Positions 9,265 to 18,121 of a stretch of DNA of 33,454 nucleotides are shown in pieces (position 1 is the stretch's first letter; the number at the start of each line of letters is the position of its first letter). The position numbers and the translations under genes are program-made. Under the pieces are notes generated by a model. It searched no databases. It was not told the DNA's origin and worked only from the letters and a program-made list of their open reading frames with translations. Source of the DNA: Chloroflexota bacterium (GTDB lineage: Bacteria > Chloroflexota > Dehalococcoidia > UBA2979); assembly GCA_009839925.1 (NCBI GenBank), contig VXOS01000061.1, positions 1 through 33,454 on the forward strand. Direction: 5' to 3'.

Positions 9265-10293
9265 ATGCGCTATCGCACGATCGCGGGCACCGACATCTCG
9301 GTCTCGGAACTCGGCTTCGGCGTCTGGACGGTCGCCGCCGGGTGGTGGGGCGACTACAGCGACGACGAGGCCGTGACGCTGCTGCGGCAGGGCCATGAGC
9401 GCGGCATCAACTTCTTCGACACCGCCGACACCTACGGCAACGGCCGCGGCGAGACGATCCTCGCGCAGGCCTTCCCCGGCGCCGAGCGCGACAAGATCGT
9501 GATCGCCACCAAGTTTGGCTACGACTGGGAGTCGCAGATCGGCAAGCGCCGCGAGGGCCACCAGGAGGCGCCGCACTGCTTCGAGCCGGAGTTCCTGCAG
9601 CGCGCGCTGGACGGCTCGCTGCGCCGCCTCGGCACCGACCGCATCGACCTCTGGCAGCTGCACAACGTGCGCATGGAGCACCTGGAGCGCGACGACGTCT
9701 GGAGCTTCCTCGACCGCGTGCGCCGCGAGGGCAAGGTGCGCAGCGTCGGGGCCGCCCTCGGTCCGGCGATCGGCTGGCGCGAGGAGGGCCTCTACGCCCT
9801 CGCCGAGCGGCAGGTCGAGGTGGTGCACATGATCTACAACGCGCTCGAGCTGGACCCCGGCCGCGAGCTGATCGCGGCGGCGCGCGCGGCCGGGCGCTCG
9901 CTGATGGTGCGGGTGCCGCACTCCTCGGGGATGCTCGAGGGCAAGTACACCGTGGACACGGTGTTCGACGAGAACGACCACCGCCGCCACCGCCCCCGCG
10001 CCTGGCTGATCAACGGCCTCAAGAAGATCGCGCAGCTCGACTTCCTCACCGAGGCGACGGGCGGGGTGCTCGGGCAGGCGGCGCTGCGCTACATCCTCAA
10101 GGACCCGGAAATCGTCTGCACGCTGCCCAACATCTACGGCCTCGAGCAGATCGAGGAGTTCGCCGGCGCCTCGGACTGCGGCGACGTCGGCCCCGAGGTG
10201 GCCGCGCGCATCGAGGCGCTGTACGACTCCAACTACGGGCTGCCCGTGGAGCAGGAGGCCGCCGTGACGGCGGCGGGACGGGGGTCGCGATGA
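9265..10293 (+). CDS. Aldo/keto reductase
   Basis: A 342-aa AKR-superfamily (beta/alpha)8-barrel, normally an NADPH-dependent carbonyl reductase. The catalytic tetrad is intact: Asp52 and Tyr57 in FDTADTYG, Lys83 in ATKFGY, His133 in LWQLHN. The start MRYRTIAGTDISVSELGFG is typical. The ATG at 9265 has GAGGGGACC upstream. A GTG at 9220 in frame would add 15 non-homologous residues. The C-terminus contains an unusual stretch KYTVDTVFDENDHRRHR (about 228-244). The stop overlaps the next ATG (ATGA), making it the first gene of a seven-gene translationally coupled operon. Its role alongside tetrapyrrole-like proteins is unknown. Confidence 0.9.
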   Translation: MRYRTIAGTDISVSELGFGVWTVAAGWWGDYSDDEAVTLLRQGHERGINFFDTADTYGNGRGETILAQAFPGAERDKIVIATKFGYDWESQIGKRREGHQEAPHCFEPEFLQRALDGSLRRLGTDRIDLWQLHNVRMEHLERDDVWSFLDRVRREGKVRSVGAALGPAIGWREEGLYALAERQVEVVHMIYNALELDPGRELIAAARAAGRSLMVRVPHSSGMLEGKYTVDTVFDENDHRRHRPRAWLINGLKKIAQLDFLTEATGGVLGQAALRYILKDPEIVCTLPNIYGLEQIEEFAGASDCGDVGPEVAARIEALYDSNYGLPVEQEAAVTAAGRGSR

Positions 10294-11093
10294 CGACGAC
10301 CGAGGCGCACGCCGGCTCGCATCCGGCTTCCGGCTACCACTCACGGCCGGAGGCGGCGCAGGACGGCGCGCCGCGCAGCCCGCGCGGGGTGCAGTCCGTC
10401 AAGTTCAGCTTCTTTCGCGTGCGCGACGAGGTGCGCGCGCTCCCCGCGGCCGGGCGCGAGGCGATCGCCGGGGAGCTGGAGGAGCTGCTGGAGCAATCGG
10501 CGACCTCGCTGCTGACGCGGCTCTACTCGACGGTGGGGACACGCGCGGACACCGACTTCCTGGTCTGGCAGGTCCACGACGAGCTCGCGCCGATCCAGGA
10601 CTGGCACGCGCTGCTGCTCGGCTCGCAGGCGGGCGCGGCGCTGGAGCGGCCGCACTCCTTCCTCTCGATGACGATGCGCTCGATCTACACCAACCCGCTG
10701 CACGAGGGGTCGGGCGCGCGCGACCGGCTGCGGGAGGACGGCGGCGTGAAGGACTACCTCTTCGTCTACCCGATGGTGAAGACCCGCGCCTGGTACACGC
10801 TGTCCCGCGAGGAGCGGCAGCGGATCATGAACGAGCACATCGCGATCGGGCACCGCTACCACGACATCCAGATCAACACGACCTACTCCTACGGCCTCGA
10901 CGACCAGGAGTTCGTCGTCGCGTTCGAGGGGGACGCCCCCGGCGAGTTCCTGGCGCTGGTGCGCGAGCTGCGCGACTCCGAGTCGTCCTCCTACACCGAG
11001 CGCGACACGCCGATGTTCACCTGCCGCCGCATCGAGACGCCTCGCGAGCTGACGGCGCACGTCGGCCTCCGGGCCTCCGGGGGCGCCTCGTGA
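10290..11093 (+). CDS. Chlorite dismutase-family protein, coproheme decarboxylase (ChdC/HemQ)-like
   Basis: A 267-aa protein of the chlorite dismutase/HemQ family. ChdC oxidatively decarboxylates coproheme III to heme b with peroxide. The family core starts near residue 36 (VKFSFFRV) after a 35-residue low-complexity extension. DYLFVYPMVKTRAWYTL (155-171) matches the ChdC segment carrying the catalytic tyrosine (Tyr160 here). ERQRIMNEHIAIGHRY (175-190) carries the proximal-histidine position, His183. SSYTERDTPMFTCRR (233-247) is the conserved C-terminal strand. The tyrosine favours a ChdC-like activity over chlorite dismutation, but activity is inferred. It overlaps both neighbours by 4 nt. 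A proline-free N-terminal targeting signal is not evident. Confidence 0.82.
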   Translation: MTTTEAHAGSHPASGYHSRPEAAQDGAPRSPRGVQSVKFSFFRVRDEVRALPAAGREAIAGELEELLEQSATSLLTRLYSTVGTRADTDFLVWQVHDELAPIQDWHALLLGSQAGAALERPHSFLSMTMRSIYTNPLHEGSGARDRLREDGGVKDYLFVYPMVKTRAWYTLSREERQRIMNEHIAIGHRYHDIQINTTYSYGLDDQEFVVAFEGDAPGEFLALVRELRDSESSSYTERDTPMFTCRRIETPRELTAHVGLRASGGAS

Positions 11094-11392
11094 GCGTGCG
11101 GCTGGCGGCGCTCTTCACCGCCGCGCCCGGCGGCGAGCAGCGGCTGCGCGAGGTGCTGGAGTCGGACGCGCGCTCGACGCAGAGCGAAGCGGGCGCGGAG
11201 CGCTTCGAGCTGTTTGTGAGCGCCGGGGACGCGCGCCGCCTCGTACTCATCGAGCAGTGGCGCTCGCAGGAGGACCTGGACGCGCACAAGACGAGCGACC
11301 ATCGCAACGAGACCCACGCCGCGCTGCACGGCGAGGACATCCTCGAGGACCTCGAAATCTGGCGCTGCGAACCGAGGGACGGTCCCGCATGA
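11090..11392 (+). CDS. ABM-domain protein 1 of 4
   Basis: A 100-aa antibiotic-biosynthesis-monooxygenase (ABM/YgiN/IsdG-like) ferredoxin-like fold protein. It shows the pattern of an N-terminal strand VRLAALFTAAPGGEQRLREVL, then RLVLIEQWRSQEDLDAHKTSDH (about 49-70), with the E-x-W and downstream His of the superfamily. It is the most divergent of the four tandem copies: EPGN becomes EAGA and the AF-DP tail is missing. Cofactor-free quinol or heme oxygenation occurs in this superfamily. The reaction here is unknown. The GTG start overlaps the preceding stop (GTGA), and its own stop overlaps the next ATG. Confidence 0.8.
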   Translation: MSVRLAALFTAAPGGEQRLREVLESDARSTQSEAGAERFELFVSAGDARRLVLIEQWRSQEDLDAHKTSDHRNETHAALHGEDILEDLEIWRCEPRDGPA

Positions 11393-11685
11393 CGATCAAG
11401 CTGACCGTGTCGATCACCGCCAACCCGGAGGGCCGCGATCGGCTGCTCGCGCTGCTGCGCGACGACGTGGTCGGCAGCCGCGCGGAGCCTGGCAACACCC
11501 GCTTCGACCTCTACGTGCAGGACGACGACCCCAACCGTTTCGTGCTGATCGAGGAGTGGCCAAACCAGGAGGCGTTCAACCATCACATCCAGCAGGACTA
11601 CCTGCTCAAGCTGCGCGAGGCCTTCGAGGACCCCGCGCTCTGCGCCGGACGCGATGTCTGGCGGCTGGTGGAGGACGACGCGTGA
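11389..11685 (+). CDS. ABM-domain protein 2 of 4
   Basis: A 98-aa ABM-domain protein. Landmarks are ITANPEGRDRLLALLRDD, AEPGNTRFDLYVQDDDPNRFVLIEEW (about 32-57) and EAFNHHIQQDY, then REAFEDPAL. Trp57 and His64/His65 are in the W/H positions that ABM and IsdG-type proteins use, though this alone does not prove heme binding. Start ATG, 4-nt overlap with copy 1. Single ABM domains normally pair as homodimers. With four co-translated paralogues, hetero-oligomers are possible. Confidence 0.83.
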   Translation: MTIKLTVSITANPEGRDRLLALLRDDVVGSRAEPGNTRFDLYVQDDDPNRFVLIEEWPNQEAFNHHIQQDYLLKLREAFEDPALCAGRDVWRLVEDDA

Positions 11686-11993
11686 GCCAGCGCGCGACGG
11701 TCTTCCTGAGCGCGAACCCGGACGGGGTGGACGAGGTGCTCGGACTGCTGCGCGCCTACGCCGAGGCAGGTCCGAGGGAGCCGGGCAACCTGCGCCTGCG
11801 GGTCAGCCAGGACATCCTCGACCCCTCGCGGTTCGTGATGTGCGAGGAGTGGGAGACGCAGGAGGCGCTCGACGCGCACATGACGCAGGACCACACCCGC
11901 GCGGTCCTCGCCGCGTTCGGCGACCCGGAGCTGATCACGGGGACCGAGATCTGGCAGAGCTTCGAGGCAGCGCCTTCGGGGAGGGCGGCATGA
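11682..11993 (+). CDS. ABM-domain protein 3 of 4
   Basis: A 103-aa ABM-domain protein: VFLSANPDGVDEVLGLLRAY, REPGNLRLRVSQDILDPSRFVMCEEW (about 32-57), EALDAHMTQDH, AAFGDPELITGTEIW. It shares RVSQDI-D--RFV-CE-WE--EAL and AF-DP-LITG with copy 4, so these two are the most recent duplicates. A cysteine precedes the E-x-W motif in copies 3 and 4 but not 1 and 2. GTG start in a GTGA overlap. It ends in ATGA shared with copy 4. Confidence 0.83.
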   Translation: MSQRATVFLSANPDGVDEVLGLLRAYAEAGPREPGNLRLRVSQDILDPSRFVMCEEWETQEALDAHMTQDHTRAVLAAFGDPELITGTEIWQSFEAAPSGRAA

Positions 11994-12283
11994 CTGGTCG
12001 CGTCACGGTGTTCTTCGAGGCGAACCCGGAGCGGCGCGCGCGGCTGCTCGAGCTGCTGCGCGCCGACGCGGAGGGGTCGCCCGCCGAGCCGGGCAACGTC
12101 TGCTTCCGCGTGAGCCAGGACATCGTCGACTCCGACCGCTTCGTGATCTGCGAGGACTGGGAAAGTCGCGAGGCGCTCCACGAGCACTTCGAACAGGACT
12201 ACGCGAAGGCGGTGAAGGCCGCGTTCACGGATCCGCAGCTGATCACGGGCTTCGACACCTGGTTCGCGGGGGAGGGCGCATGA
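11990..12283 (+). CDS. ABM-domain protein 4 of 4
   Basis: A 97-aa ABM-domain protein: VFFEANPERRARLLELLRAD, AEPGNVCFRVSQDIVDSDRFVICEDW (about 32-57), EALHEHFEQDY, AAFTDPQLITGFDTW. It is closest to copy 3. Position and spacing of E-x-W (Trp57) and the following histidines match the other copies. It overlaps copy 3 and the AhbAB-like gene by 4 nt each. Confidence 0.83.
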   Translation: MTGRVTVFFEANPERRARLLELLRADAEGSPAEPGNVCFRVSQDIVDSDRFVICEDWESREALHEHFEQDYAKAVKAAFTDPQLITGFDTWFAGEGA

Positions 12284-13416
12284 CCACCGAAGCGGCCATC
12301 CCGGCCACCGTCGACGACCCGACCAACGCAGCCATCCTCGCGGTCTCCGAGGACCGCGTCGCGGGGTTCCAACGCGACCCCCTCGGACGCATCGCCGAGC
12401 GGTCCGGCGTGGCGCTGCCGGTCGTCATCGAGCGGATTCGCGCAATGCTGGAGGCGGGCACGATCCGGCGCGTGCGGCAAACGCTGCTCGCGAACAAGCT
12501 CGCGCCGGGCGCGCTCGTCGCCTGGCGGCTGCCCGAGGATCGCCTGCACGACGGCTTCGACTACCTCTTCCAGCAGGACCCCTTCTCCGGCCACGTCGTG
12601 ATCCGCAGCGCGGACCCGGCCACGCCGGGCGCGACGTACCGGCTCTGGACCACGCTCAAGACGCCCGTCGGTTTCTCGCTGGAGCGGCACTGCGAGCTGC
12701 TCTCCGAGCGCATCGGCGCGGAGGCGTTCCGGCTGATGCCGGCGAAGCGCCTCTTCACCCTCGGCGTCGGCCACGTCCGTCGGCGCGGTCTGGAGCCGGG
12801 CGCGCGCAGCGAGGAGCCCGCGAGGGTGATCGATACCGAGATCGTGGACCTCGACGAGCAGGACTGGCGCGTGCTGATGGCGCTCAAGCGCGAGTTCGCG
12901 CCCGGGGAGATCGGCCCCGACCTCTGGGCCGCCCGCGCCAGCGAGGCGGGACTCACCCTCGAGGCCTTCTTCGAGGCCGCCGAGGAGCTCGACCGGCGCG
13001 GGGTCGTCGGGCGCTTCTCGACCTTCCTCGAGCACGTCAAGCAGGTCGCCGGGGCGGCGCCGGTGACGCGCTACAACGCGCTGTTCCACTGGGCCGTGCC
13101 GCAGGGGCGCGAGCTGGACGCCGGCCGCGAGGTTGGCCGCCACCACGTGATGACGCACGCCTACTGGCGCGAGGGCGGCCCGGAGTTCCGCGACGTCAAC
13201 GTGATGGGCGTGGCCCACGGCACGGACAAGGACCTGCTGCTCGCCCACAAGGCGGCAATCGACGAGCACCTCGCCGAGGCCGGCATCGACGTTGGCTACA
13301 CGAACGTCTTCTGGGGTGGGCGCAGCGAGATCAAGCCCTCGGAGATTGCGCCCGACGCCTACGTCGCGTGGGCGAGCGGGCAGGGCGTGGACCCCGCGAC
13401 GCTGCGCGAGGCGTAG
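12280..13416 (+). CDS. Double Lrp/AsnC-type protein resembling fused siroheme decarboxylase AhbA-AhbB (NirD-L)
   Basis: A 378-aa protein with two copies of a winged-helix plus RAM-like (ferredoxin fold) unit. Copy 1 has DPLGRIAERSGVALPVVIERI (about 32-52), EAGTIRRVRQTL, ALVAWRLPE (about 81-89) and YRLWTTLKTP. Copy 2 has LDEQDWRVLMALK (about 191-203), EELDRRGVVGRFSTFL, LFHWAVPQG (about 268-276), VMTHAYWREGGPE, and VNVMGVAHGTDK (about 307-318). The A-W-V-P and H-x-Y-xR-x(n)-N-x-x-x-x-H layout is that of AhbA/AhbB/NirD/NirL siroheme decarboxylases, not ordinary Lrp regulators. AhbAB makes 12,18-didecarboxysiroheme. Whether this protein does so, or only senses a tetrapyrrole, is open. It is the last gene of the operon. 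Confidence 0.72.
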   Translation: MTTEAAIPATVDDPTNAAILAVSEDRVAGFQRDPLGRIAERSGVALPVVIERIRAMLEAGTIRRVRQTLLANKLAPGALVAWRLPEDRLHDGFDYLFQQDPFSGHVVIRSADPATPGATYRLWTTLKTPVGFSLERHCELLSERIGAEAFRLMPAKRLFTLGVGHVRRRGLEPGARSEEPARVIDTEIVDLDEQDWRVLMALKREFAPGEIGPDLWAARASEAGLTLEAFFEAAEELDRRGVVGRFSTFLEHVKQVAGAAPVTRYNALFHWAVPQGRELDAGREVGRHHVMTHAYWREGGPEFRDVNVMGVAHGTDKDLLLAHKAAIDEHLAEAGIDVGYTNVFWGGRSEIKPSEIAPDAYVAWASGQGVDPATLREA

Positions 13417-13470: not shown

Positions 13471-13522
13471 GCCCCCGCCGAGCATGCGCTTTGGACGGGG
13501 ACATACCGAGGAGGTACAGAGA

Positions 13523-14503
13523 GTGTTCGCGATCCGATGGAGGAGACTGCTCCCGCTGGCCATGCTCGCCCTCGCGGCGACGATGCTGATCGGGGCATGC
13601 GGGGGCGATGACGGCGGCGGCGAGACCACGGGCAGCGGCGAGAAGCTGTCCGGCAGCGTGGCGGTGGACGGCTCCAGCACCGTCTTCCCGGTGACCGAGG
13701 CGGTCGCCGAGGAGTTCCGCTCCGTCGGCCCCGACGTGCGCGTCACCGTCGGCGTCTCCGGCACCGGCGGCGGCTTCGAGAAGTTCTGCAGCGCCGAGAC
13801 CGACATCTCCAACGCCTCCCGCCCGATCAAGCAGAGCGAGATCGACAGCTGCGCCGAGAACGGCATCGAGTACCTCCCGCTCCGCGTCGGCCTCGACGGC
13901 CTCGCCGTCGTCGCCCACCCCGACGCCGAATTCCTCGAGTGCATCACGATGGATGAGCTGGCGATCCTCTGGGGCCCCGACTCCGAGGGCTCGATCAAGA
14001 GCTGGAACCAGGTGCGCGCCAGCTGGCCGGACGAGGAGATCAAGCTGTTCGGGCCCGACACCGACTCGGGCACGTTCGACTTCTTCACCGAGGAAGTGAA
14101 CGGCGAAGGCGGCGCCTCCCGCGCCGACTACACCAACTCCACCGACGACAACGTGCTCGTCACCGGCATCTCCGGCTCGAAGGGTGGCGCCGGCTACTTC
14201 GGCTACGCCTACTACGCCGAGAACGCGGAGCGCCTGCGCGTTGTCGCCGTCGACGGCGGCTCCGGCTGCGTCATCCCCTCCGACGCCACCGTCTCGGACG
14301 GCTCCTACGCCCTCGCGCGGCCGCTCTACATCTACGTCTCGACGAAGTCGCTGGCGGAGAAGCCGCAGGTGCGCGAGTTCGTGCGCTACTACCTGAGCGA
14401 CGCCGCAATTGCGCTCGTGCCCGATGTGGGGTACACCGCAATTGCTGCCGACGAGCTCGCCGAGTCCCGGGCCAACCTCGAAGCCGCCATCTCCGGCGGC
14501 TAG
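13523..14503 (+). CDS. pstS: Phosphate ABC transporter substrate-binding lipoprotein
   Basis: A 326-aa PstS-family periplasmic-type phosphate binder anchored as a lipoprotein. A signal peptide (RWRRLLPLAMLALAATMLIGAC) ends in lipobox IGAC with Cys26. Phosphate-site segments are VDGSSTVFPVTEA, GVSGTGGGFEKFC, SNASRPIKQSE and DTDSGTFDFF. The GTG at 13523 is chosen because GAGGAGGT sits 7 nt upstream. An ATG at 13484 would include this ribosome binding site in the coding region. It is first of pstS-pstC-pstA-pstB-phoU with a candidate PHO box upstream, so induction by phosphate starvation is likely. Confidence 0.94.
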   Translation: MFAIRWRRLLPLAMLALAATMLIGACGGDDGGGETTGSGEKLSGSVAVDGSSTVFPVTEAVAEEFRSVGPDVRVTVGVSGTGGGFEKFCSAETDISNASRPIKQSEIDSCAENGIEYLPLRVGLDGLAVVAHPDAEFLECITMDELAILWGPDSEGSIKSWNQVRASWPDEEIKLFGPDTDSGTFDFFTEEVNGEGGASRADYTNSTDDNVLVTGISGSKGGAGYFGYAYYAENAERLRVVAVDGGSGCVIPSDATVSDGSYALARPLYIYVSTKSLAEKPQVREFVRYYLSDAAIALVPDVGYTAIAADELAESRANLEAAISGG

Positions 14504-14536
14504 CGAACGAGGAGCGAGAGCAGGGATGAGCGACTG

Positions 14537-15475
14537 ATGGCTGCCGATACGGCAGCGGCAGGCGGACCGGCGGCGCAGTTCCAGCGCCGCCGAGGCCGCG
14601 AGTTGGTCGAGCAGGCGATCGGCTACGCCCTGTTCCTCTGCGCGGCGATCACGGTGCTCACCACGGTGGGCATCGTCCTCATTCTCGTCGTGGAGGGGCT
14701 GCAGTTCTTCCGCGACGTCTCGCCCTGGGAGTTCTTCACCGGCACGAAGTGGACGCCGCTCTTCACGAACCAGGCGTTCGGCGTGCTGCCGCTGATCGGC
14801 GGCACGTTGCTGGTGGCGGTCGGGGCGGCGCTGATCTCGGTGCCGGTCGGGAGCGCGAGCGCGATCTACCTCTCCGAATTCGCGAGCCCCGCCACGCGCG
14901 CGGTGCTGAAGCCGATCCTCGAGATCCTCGCCGGCGTACCTACCGTGGTGTACGGCTACTTCGCGCTCACGGCGGTCACGCCACTGCTGCGCACCACGCT
15001 GTTCCCCGAGACAGAGATCTTCAACGCGCTCTCGGCGATGGTCGTCGTCGGGATCATGACCATCCCCATGGTCTCCTCGCTCTCCGACGACGCGCTGCAC
15101 GCCGTCCCGGCCGACCTGCGCGAGGCCGCCTACGGCGTGGGCGCGACGAAGTTCGAGGTGGTCACGCGCGTCGTCTATCCGGCGGCGCTGAGCGGGATCA
15201 TCGCCTCGTACATCCTCGCCGCCTCGCGAGCGATCGGGGAGACGATGGCGGTGACGATCGCGGCGGGCGCATCACCGAACCTGACGGCGAACCCGCTGGA
15301 GTCGATCCAGACGATGACCGCGTACATCGTGCAGGTCTCGCTCGGTGACACGCCGCACGGGACGATCGAGTTCCGCACGATCTTCGTCGTCGCGCTGACG
15401 CTGTTTGCGATGACGTTGGTCATGAACATCATCGCCGCGCGGGTCACGGCCCGCTTCCGCGAGGTCTACGACTGA
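14537..15475 (+). CDS. pstC: Phosphate ABC transporter permease PstC
   Basis: A 312-aa inner-membrane permease with six predicted helices. It has the large loop after helix 1 typical of PstC ([19 protein letters not shown], about 54-72) and the EAA coupling motif [16 protein letters not shown] (about 195-210), which contacts PstB. It pairs with PstA to form the channel. A short out-of-frame ATG (14526) stops at once. The ATG at 14537 opens the correct frame. The stop overlaps the pstA ATG (TGATG). Confidence 0.95.
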
Positions 15476-16404
15476 TGGCCGCCACGGACATGCAAGCCGG
15501 AGCGGACCGCGGCCTGTACGTCCCGAGGCTGTCCTTCCGCCACAAGAAGGGCGCGGCATTCTTCGCAATCTGCCTCGCCGGCACGCTCGTCGGCGTCGTC
15601 TTCCTCGCCTTCCTGTTGCTCGACGTCTGGCGCGATGGCGCGGGCTTCCTGCGCTGGGAGTTCCTCCAGAACTTCCCCTCGCGCTTCCCGGAGCGCGCGG
15701 GCTTCCAGTCGGCGCTGTGGGGCAGCCTCTGGCTGATCATCACGACGGCGCTCCTGGCGTTCCCGATCGGCGTCGGGGCGGCGATCTACCTCGAGGAGTA
15801 CGCACCCCGCGGTTTCGTGACGAAGGCGATCCAGACCAACATCTCCAACCTCGCCGGGGTGCCCTCGATCGTCTTCGGCATCCTCGGCCTGCAGCTCTTC
15901 GTGCGCGGCACGATCGGCATCGGGCCGAGCATCGGGGGCGGCTTCGGGCGCTCGATCATCGCCGGCGGCGCGACGATGGCGCTGCTGATCCTGCCGATCG
16001 TGATCGTCGCCGCGCAGGAGTCGATCCGCGCGGTGCCGCCGTCGCTGCGCGAGGCCTCGTACGGGGTTGGCGCGACGCGCTGGCAGACGGTTTGGCACCA
16101 CGTGCTGCCGCAGGCGTTTCCCGGGATCATGACCGGCACGATCCTGGCGCTGTCGCGGGCGATCGGGGAGACGGCGCCGCTGATCATGATCGGCGCGCTG
16201 ACCTTCGTGGCGTTCCGGCCGGAGAGCCTGCTGGATCCGTTCACGGTGATGCCGATCCAGATCTACAACTGGGTGGCGCGGCCGCAGCCGGAGTTCCAGG
16301 ACCTCGCGGCCACGGGCATCATCGTGCTGCTGGTGATGCTACTCTCGATGAACGCGATAGCCGTGCTGCTGCGGCAGTGGACCGGACGGCGTTACGGACG
16401 CTAG
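15475..16404 (+). CDS. pstA: Phosphate ABC transporter permease PstA
   Basis: A 309-aa permease with six predicted helices. Landmarks are [25 protein letters not shown] (about 59-83), [35 protein letters not shown] (about 103-137, the conserved PstA segment) and the EAA motif [22 protein letters not shown] (about 192-213). It is translationally coupled to pstC by a 1-nt overlap. Confidence 0.95.
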
Positions 16405-16416
16405 GACGTACGCGGG

Positions 16417-16443
16417 CGCCGGTCCCCCTCGCGGGTTCCGGCG
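16417..16443 (+). promoter_or_regulatory. Intercistronic hairpin between pstA and pstB
   Basis: Arms CGCCGG (16417-16422) and CCGGCG (16438-16443), with an inner CCC/GGG pair, lie in the 58-bp gap before pstB. No T-run follows. It may set the ratio of pstA to pstB message by partial termination or RNA protection. Confidence 0.35.
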
Positions 16444-16462
16444 GGAGTGAGGAGCCTACGGG

Positions 16463-17344
16463 ATGGTCGGGAACGTGACCGACGAGGCGGAGCGGACGGC
16501 AGCCTCCGCAGCGGCCCGCGCGGCCGGCGTGAGCGTGCAGGCCGGTGTGCGCGCGACGGAGCCCGAGCCGGCGGCGGAACCCGGCATCGCCGTCGAGATG
16601 CGCAACATCAGCCTCTGGTACGGCCAGAAGCAGGCCGTCGGCAACGTCTCGCTCGATGTGCCTCGCAACCGCGTGACCGCGCTGATCGGCCCCTCCGGCT
16701 GCGGCAAGAGCACGTTGCTGCGCTGCATCAACCGCATGAACGACCTGATCGACGGCGTGCGCATCGAGGGCGAAGTCATGATCGACGGCGCGAACATCTA
16801 CGCGCCCAACACGGAGCCCTCCCAGGTGCGCCGCCACGTGGGCATGGTCTTCCAGAAGCCCAACCCGTTCCCCAAGTCGATCTACGACAACGTGGCCTTC
16901 GGCGCGAAGATCAACGGCTACACCGGCAACATGGACGACCTCGTGGAGGAGTCGCTGACCAAGGCGGCGCTCTGGGACGAGGTCAAGCACGAGCTCAAGA
17001 AGTCCGGGCTGGCGCTGTCGGGAGGGCAGCAGCAGCGGCTCTGCATCGCCCGCGCGATCGCGGTGAACCCGGAGATCGTGCTGATGGACGAGCCTTGTTC
17101 CGCCCTCGACCCGATCGCGACGCAGCGGATCGAGGATCTGATGCTCGAGCTGGCGAACGACTACACAATCGTTGTAGTCACGCATAACATGCAGCAGGCG
17201 GCACGCGTCTCGCACAAGACGGCGTTCATGCTCGCCGAGGACGATCTGGTTGGACGACTGATCGAGTTCTCCGACACGGACGAGATCTTCCTCAACCCGC
17301 AGGACAGCCGCACAGAGGAATACATCACCGGCCGCTTCGGATAG
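16463..17344 (+). CDS. pstB: Phosphate ABC transporter ATP-binding protein PstB
   Basis: A 293-aa ABC ATPase powering phosphate import. Walker [10 protein letters not shown] is at 76-84, the Q-loop at [15 protein letters not shown], signature LSGGQQQR at 185-192, and Walker B IVLMDEP at 205-211, followed by the PstB-specific [16 protein letters not shown]. The first 41 residues (Ala/Glu-rich, [10 protein letters not shown]) are an extension beyond the usual approx. 250-aa PstB. GAGGAG lies about 8 nt before the ATG. Confidence 0.95.
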
Positions 17345-17391
17345 TACCCGACGCAGCCGCGAGGTCGCCCGGACGCGCCGGCGGCAGCGCG

Positions 17392-17397
17392 TACCAT
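17392..17397 (+). promoter_or_regulatory. Candidate -10 element for phoU
   Basis: TACCAT in the 111-bp pstB-phoU gap, 58 nt before the phoU ATG. The gap is long for this operon, so phoU may have a promoter of its own. The call rests on the hexamer alone. Confidence 0.22.
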
Positions 17398-17455
17398 CGG
17401 GACCCCCAACAGGCGGACGGACGCAGCACCGCCGGATCGGAGCACGAGAAGCGAG

Positions 17456-18121
17456 ATGCCGCGAGAGCAGTTCCAGGCTGACCTCGACCGGCTGCAGGAC
17501 GGCCTGCTCGAGATGGGTGCGATGGTCGATCGCCAGATCGAACGCGCCATGGCCGCGCTCGTCGAACGCGATGTCGCGCTCGCCGACGCGGTGATCCGCG
17601 ACGATGCCGAGGTCAACCGCAAGCGTTTCGACCTGGACAACCAGGTCCTGCACTTGCTCGCTCAACAGGGCCCGATGGCGCGCGACCTGCGCGTCGTGAT
17701 CTCGGTCCTCTCGATGGTCGTCGACCTCGAGCGGATGGGGGACCACGCCAAGGGCATCGGCGCGATCGTGCAGATGATGTCGGACGAGCCGCTGGTCAAG
17801 CCGCTGGTCGACATCCCCGAGATGGCGACACGGGCGCGCTCGATGCTCAACAACTCCCTCGACGCCTTCGTCAACGGCGACATCGAGGCCGCCTACCGGG
17901 TCGGGCAGGCAGACGACGGCGTGGACGAGTTGCAGGACCGGGTCTACAAGGACCTGGTCGCGATCATGATCAACGACCCTGCGACGGTGGAGCCCTGCAC
18001 GCACCTGCTCTGGGTGGCGCACAACCTCGAGCGGATCGCGGACCGCACCACGAACATCGCCGAGCGCGTCGTCTTCGCCGAGACCGGCGAGATCGTCGAG
18101 ATGGACCTCTCGACCTACTAG
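17456..18121 (+). CDS. phoU: Phosphate signalling protein PhoU
   Basis: A 221-aa all-helical PhoU with two repeats. Each repeat carries its metal-cluster motif: DLERMGDHAKGIG (90-102) and NLERIADRTTNIAERV (190-205). PhoU links the Pst transporter to the PhoR-type sensor kinase and restrains phosphate uptake when phosphate is plentiful. No phoR/phoB pair is present in this window. It is convergent with the aquaporin gene (11-bp gap). Confidence 0.95.
   Translation: MPREQFQADLDRLQDGLLEMGAMVDRQIERAMAALVERDVALADAVIRDDAEVNRKRFDLDNQVLHLLAQQGPMARDLRVVISVLSMVVDLERMGDHAKGIGAIVQMMSDEPLVKPLVDIPEMATRARSMLNNSLDAFVNGDIEAAYRVGQADDGVDELQDRVYKDLVAIMINDPATVEPCTHLLWVAHNLERIADRTTNIAERVVFAETGEIVEMDLSTY

Follow-up and report, generated by a model that had tools for sequence, protein, structure and literature searches.

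A candidate radical-SAM-free route from siroheme to heme b in Chloroflexota, with an aldo-keto reductase in the place of AhbC

The 33,454-nucleotide contig VXOS01000061.1 of assembly GCA_009839925.1, analyzed here in full and called the window, is contig 29 of the 2.86-Mb draft genome (G000) of a Chloroflexota bacterium. At positions 9265 to 13416 it carries seven overlapping genes for an aldo-keto reductase (AKR), a ChdC-type protein (gene label CLD), four ABM proteins and an AhbAB-like protein (AHB); G and L numbers below denote genomes and loci. Three end-routes to heme have been described. The one that passes through siroheme has been portrayed as dependent on radical S-adenosylmethionine (SAM) enzymes and as characteristic of archaea and sulfate reducers. 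We propose, with a probability of about 65%, that AKR, ChdC and the AhbAB-like protein carry out the final steps of siroheme-dependent heme b synthesis by a pathway free of radical-SAM enzymes, in which AKR replaces AhbC and ChdC replaces AhbD. Gene order, co-occurrence, the lack of HemE, HemH and AhbC, the conservation of key residues and the fusion of ChdC, Rieske and AhbAB domains in relatives strongly support the pathway assignment; the individual reactions, above all AKR's, are inferred.

In the proposed route, uroporphyrinogen III would be converted to siroheme by CobA/SUMT and SirC, which are encoded on another contig of G000. The AhbAB-like protein would decarboxylate the C12 and C18 acetates, giving 12,18-didecarboxysiroheme; AKR would then strip the acetate arms from C2 and C7, leaving iron-coproporphyrin III (coproheme), a step performed elsewhere by AhbC; and ChdC, instead of AhbD, would use peroxide to decarboxylate coproheme, yielding heme. 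AKR is the candidate for the AhbC step by elimination, because AKR and ChdC hold the slot of AhbC and AhbD in gene clusters and because ChdC in place of AhbD has a precedent: Haloferax volcanii uses PitA, a ChdC, in air and AhbD without air (PMC5746218; PMC8305020). AhbC removes the acetates at C2 and C7 (PMC3942049). Rings A and B of didecarboxysiroheme should carry CH3 and CH2COOH on C2 and C7 and H on C3 and C8, and coproheme formation would drop CH2COOH plus H as acetic acid and create a C=C bond. Such a step would be redox-neutral overall, so that neither SAM radicals nor O2 should be intrinsically needed. For the fuller version, in which AKR eliminates both arms and hands coproheme to ChdC, the decarboxylases are Rieske-fused in some lineages and the route operates in Rubrobacter, many Chloroflexota and members of other phyla, we judge the balance to tip slightly in favor.

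Pathway enzymes and gene neighborhoods

The first-pass annotation, made from the letters alone, proposed a tetrapyrrole module and pointed to the hemE, hemH and sirohydrochlorin genes. G000 has no match to HemE or the ferrochelatase HemH (CgoX was outside this search), and both siroheme enzymes are present: SUMT scores over its cut-off on contig 114 (G000:C114) and SirC lies in L061. The canonical coproporphyrin pathway, in which HemE, CgoX and CpfC feed ChdC, is rejected on these absences, which call for another source of coproheme. The AhbC profile has no match in G000 (AhbD-type matches appear with that profile in L071 and L065), and the radical-SAM pair AhbC and AhbD of the canonical siroheme pathway is thus not found there. 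ChdC is the only Cld-family gene of the genome.

The same pattern extends to relatives. HemE is absent from all 24 family genomes, and HemH is absent from them apart from one partial match; SUMT was found in 17. Full-length AhbC (>500 bits) occurs in 10 of 40 relatives, four of which also have AKR. Among the 22 relatives with an AhbAB match, 21 lack HemE, and 20 of these have AKR or AhbC; the exception is G001, whose contig stops short of the AKR position. The last AhbAB relative, G026, has HemE, HemH and ChdC, and neither AKR nor AhbC. A further 18 AKR genomes come mostly from other classes and phyla (Rubrobacter, Thermomicrobiales, Poribacteria, Omnitrophota, Eremiobacterota, two further Dehalococcoidia and others): HemE is over its cut-off in none of them, AhbAB is present in 17, and full-length AhbC was found in five and not in the other 13. 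The latter include the complete genome of Rubrobacter marinus, which has AKR-ChdC and AhbAB; HemE and AhbC were not found in it, and its best radical-SAM match to the AhbC profile reaches 102 bits, compared to ~500 for real AhbC. Since R. marinus shows this pattern, cultured relatives exist for testing. In a sample of 201 Chloroflexota genomes, AKR is present in 16 and HemE in 100, and 15 of the 16 AKR genomes lack HemE (Fisher p = 3e-4, not corrected for kinship). Separately, the control genome of Deinobacterium chartae has the Cld family, an AhbAB domain and SUMT, with HemE and ferrochelatase unmatched; judged from these genes, it may follow a similar route.

Gene order ties these proteins together. 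We scanned 84,980 genomes with an AKR alignment and analyzed the best 80 of 462 loci, using hidden Markov models built from gene clusters to call same-strand partners at a distance of up to 8 kb. ChdC, AhbAB or siroheme genes stand beside AKR in 62 of these 80 loci and both ChdC and AhbAB in 29; the commonest pair is AKR-ChdC, in 60. The homologs are therefore not scattered, and the placement of the triad among siroheme genes in relatives bears out the tetrapyrrole reading. A typical Dehalococcoidia cluster runs AKR-AhbAB-ChdC-HTH-SirC-HemA-HemC-HemD/CobA-HemB-HAD-HemL (L053-L056, L073, L076, L077 and L079), and a second arrangement AKR-ChdC-AhbAB(divergent)-SirC-HemA-HemC-HemD/CobA-HemB-HemL (L012, L014, L078, L084 and L085). 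In G034 (L071), AhbC and AhbD occupy the slot of AKR and ChdC: HTH-AhbC-AhbD-AhbAB-SirC-HemA-HemC-HemD/CobA-HemB-HemL; G032 (L017) agrees with this order across the portion read. AKR and AhbAB also lie amid siroheme genes in L184, L188, L189 and L191, which come from the 201-genome Chloroflexota sample, one that was not picked for clustering.

In G000 itself, the siroheme genes are on contig 114 (L061, G000:C114:1-13290) in the order HTH-SirC-HemA-HemC-HemD/CobA-HemB-HAD-HemL, preceded by a DNA polymerase IV-like gene, as in relatives. Where relatives carry the AKR-ChdC-AhbAB block, L061 has none, and the triad is found instead in the window, upstream of phosphate-uptake genes. The siroheme cluster has thus lost the block, and the block in the window carries four inserted ABM genes. 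Between HemD/CobA and HemB, L061 also holds an open frame of 255 aa (L061:6591-7355, + strand) that matches nothing in Pfam.

Parts of the first-pass annotation did not hold. It looked to Actinobacteria, and the host is a member of the Chloroflexota (Dehalococcoidia), with close-relative loci from Chloroflexota/Dehalococcoidia metagenome-assembled genomes. It also took all seven genes as one unit; this set is not conserved, because ABM genes are restricted to two species within a single genus. The conserved core is AKR, ChdC and the fused AhbAB-like protein, and the order AKR-CLD-AHB is found free of ABM genes in G018, G012, G023 and G009.

The module and its proteins

The features of the module are as follows (window positions, all on the + strand).

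9265..10293, +: AKR, candidate replacement of AhbC (Pfam PF00248, 149.7 bits; predicted AKR fold, pLDDT 90.5; recurrent ChdC/AhbAB partner)
9418..9663, +: span of the AKR catalytic tetrad codons D52, Y57, K83 and H133 (invariant in 38 relatives, identity down to 41%)
9910..9999, +: AKR subfamily signature R216-V-P-H219-S-S-G ... D238-H-R-R-H-R243-P-R (R216, H219, D238, H239, R240 and R243 invariant in the 38 relatives)
10290..11093, +: ChdC-type coproheme decarboxylase, Cld superfamily (PF06778, 184.4 bits; nearest solved structures are actinobacterial coproheme decarboxylases)
10767..10838, +: ChdC catalytic Tyr160 (10767-10769) and proximal His183 (10836-10838), aligned with Tyr135 and His158 of C. 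diphtheriae ChdC and invariant in relatives
11090..11392, +: ABM1, lineage-specific (PF03992; dN/dS 0.33)
11389..11685, +: ABM2, lineage-specific (PF03992; dN/dS 0.24)
11682..11993, +: ABM3, lineage-specific (PF03992; 54% identical to ABM4)
11990..12283, +: ABM4, lineage-specific (PF03992; dN/dS 0.29)
12280..13416, +: AhbA-AhbB-like fused siroheme decarboxylase, divergent subtype (PF17805, 53.8 bits; whole-length profile match to NirD-like 4ch7, E 1e-77)
12592..12606, +: A-half motif HVVIR (HXYXR with Tyr replaced by Val, common to 13/13 subtype members)
13156..13170, +: B-half motif HAYWR (HXYXR intact, including the proposed catalytic Arg; motif from PMC4145669)

The seven frames and their six 4-nt overlaps hold up as first described: every start overlaps the previous stop by ATGA or GTGA, and Pfam identifies Aldo_ket_red, Chlor_dismutase, four ABM domains and AsnC_trans_reg2, all above gathering cut-offs. 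In the congener G001 (L011), the order CLD-ABM1-ABM2-ABM3-ABM4-AHB is unchanged with protein identities of 84-94%, and the six genes comparable between the two genomes have dN/dS of 0.10-0.33; AKR falls outside this comparison because the G001 contig stops at CLD. The 4-nt overlap is kept at four of the five checkable G001 junctions, the ABM4 start being unresolved there. By order, identity and dN/dS, these are real genes. Phosphate-uptake genes follow 3' of the module on the same strand (window 13484-18121); the ABC ATPase and PhoU were identified by Pfam, and PstS, PstC and PstA were named by inspection.

AKR is the most informative gene of the module, although the first-pass annotation could not tie it to tetrapyrroles. 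Its nearest solved relative, best both by profile and by fold, is IolS (1pyf, AKR11; ~26% identity), with which it shares the barrel and the catalytic tetrad. It differs from IolS in its heme-cluster setting and in a signature, RVPHSSG and NDHRRHRPR, that is both unique and invariant; at positions 216 and 219, Tyr and Leu are found in IolS. In AKRs, the position equivalent to 216 usually holds an aromatic residue that stacks on the nicotinamide. As judged from its residues, the basic signature would suit a poly-carboxylate substrate. All NCBIfam matches are far below equivalog cut-offs, leaving no named AKR equivalog, and searching the PDB by phmmer with this one AKR sequence yielded no match at 1e-25; matches came from the profile search. 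The open-access literature searched held nothing relevant on an AKR in siroheme or heme synthesis.

The window ChdC retains the key Tyr and His of its C. diphtheriae counterpart. It scores 117 bits against NCBIfam HemQ_actino, below the 235-bit equivalog cut-off, and its closest curated models are still heme synthases. The position of the distal Arg of true Cld is presumably Ile195 in the window protein, as placed by eye against a Nitrospira sequence alone. In three genomes (G200, G094 and G128), a single frame of 762-861 aa directly downstream of AKR combines Chlor_dismutase, a Rieske [2Fe-2S] domain and both AhbAB halves. The corresponding loci, each with the AKR adjoining in a Chloroflexota siroheme cluster, are

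L184:3839-6124, -: ChdC-Rieske-AhbA-AhbB fusion
L188:7973-10555, +: ChdC-Rieske-AhbA-AhbB fusion
L191:4109-6544, -: ChdC-Rieske-AhbA-AhbB fusion

No description of such a fusion was found in the open-access literature searched. It unites the enzymes before and after the missing step and thus strongly supports a single pathway.

The AhbAB-like protein comprises two helix-turn-helix plus AsnC-like halves, and in addition to 4ch7 it has profile matches to D. desulfuricans AhbA and AhbB (4czd). The Arg of the HXYXR motif, kept in the B half, is the proposed catalyst of siroheme decarboxylase (PMC4145669). The divergent subtype is also encoded by G026 (L016:2-805, - strand).

Counterevidence and alternative explanations

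Several observations weigh against the proposed pathway. The NCBIfam AhbB and AhbA halves score 61.1 and 40.2 bits in the window protein, below the equivalog cut-offs of 125 and 140, and the A half has lost the motif Tyr, reading HVVIR or HVVVR throughout the subtype. We know of no AKR that cleaves such a C-C bond, and we have no convincing arrow mechanism for this step. Some genomes carry AhbC as well as AKR (four among the 19 AKR relatives and five among the 18 other AKR genomes); where its position is visible, AhbC sits in a second AhbC-AhbD set (L065 and L067). AKR has no partner beside it in 18 of the 80 loci; three searched genomes among these (G051, G052 and G053) have AhbAB and lack HemE. 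The congeners G002 and G003 have SUMT and none of the triad, the fragmented genome G106 is the only one of the 201 with both AKR and HemE, and draft genomes may hide genes.

The strongest alternative, which we nevertheless consider unlikely, keeps siroheme-dependent heme synthesis with ChdC and makes AKR an accessory: it would supply reducing power for ChdC or take it from ChdC, or repair oxidized (lactone or keto) isobacteriochlorins, while removal of the acetate arms falls to ChdC, AhbAB, the Rieske partner or some enzyme encoded elsewhere that has gone unrecognized. The frequency of the AKR-ChdC pair fits this role, as does the Rieske domain added in the fusions, which as a possible electron carrier keeps the alternative alive; most genomes also encode other radical-SAM proteins that weakly match the AhbC profile. 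However, most HemE-containing Chloroflexota lack AKR, as does G026 with its HemE, HemH and ChdC, and some AKR-AhbAB pairs have no ChdC beside them (L018, L145 and L152), which weakens the case for AKR as a general helper of ChdC. Nor is there a further conserved unassigned enzyme common to all clusters.

It is improbable that the module's product from siroheme is not heme b but a different, modified tetrapyrrole, such as a d1-like isobacteriochlorin. AhbAB homologs serve heme d1 synthesis too (PMC7242693), and the window subtype is divergent; against this, no alternative heme route is visible in the genomes, the only Cld-family gene is ChdC, and the clusters match AhbC-AhbD clusters, which make heme b.

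The ABM superfamily takes in IsdG-type heme-degrading enzymes, and the original suggestion allowed for breakdown and repair as well as synthesis; the direction supported here is heme synthesis from siroheme, not breakdown or repair. We regard a degradation or repair module centered on the four ABM proteins as very improbable. Among the clusters examined, ABM genes are present only in G000 and G001. ABM2 to ABM4 share 39-54% identity with one another and resemble tandem copies, with ABM1 further removed (29-32%). The nearest solved relatives are PA3566, LsrG and YgiN, and no IsdG- or MhuD-type entry appears by name among 17 PDB matches, so that heme breakdown by these proteins is unsupported. 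In haloarchaeal PitA, an ABM domain is teamed with ChdC (PMC5746218), which makes an accessory role plausible but unproven: by this analogy, the ABM proteins would be lineage-specific accessories, perhaps tetrapyrrole-binding, as suggested for the PitA domain. That the genes are mere chance neighbors, as the separation of the triad from the siroheme genes in G000 alone might suggest, is hardly credible, being already contradicted by gene fusions and by clusters conserved across many genera and several phyla.

Relation to known heme pathways

The proposed siroheme route shares its siroheme genes, AhbAB and freedom from HemE and HemH with the Ahb pathway (AhbABCD) of sulfate reducers and archaea, and its gene surroundings with the AhbC-AhbD clusters of G034 and G032; it differs in that AKR and ChdC stand in the places of AhbC and AhbD, neither of which has a match in G000. 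The hybrid Ahb/ChdC route of H. volcanii resembles it in using ChdC as an aerobic alternative to AhbD beside AhbAB and in the association of ABM with ChdC. However, Haloferax keeps AhbC, no AKR has been described there, and the ABMs of the window are separate, lineage-specific proteins. With the coproporphyrin-dependent pathway (HemE, CgoX, CpfC and ChdC) it has the last enzyme in common, whereas the window's genome lacks HemE and ferrochelatase. As first suggested, a heme route of this form appears to be new: none was found in the open-access literature searched, although a description in a subscription journal remains possible.

The data point to many Chloroflexota, Rubrobacter and other bacteria having a form of the siroheme route fit for use in air, and they name the enzyme that likely fills its gap. 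If true, this would account for the coproheme supply of HemE-less bacteria with ChdC, add a C-C bond cleaving activity, and thus new chemistry, to the AKR superfamily and give engineers a way to heme that avoids radical enzymes. A further possible link is to the haloarchaea, for which the authors of PMC5746218 left open where coproheme comes from in air.

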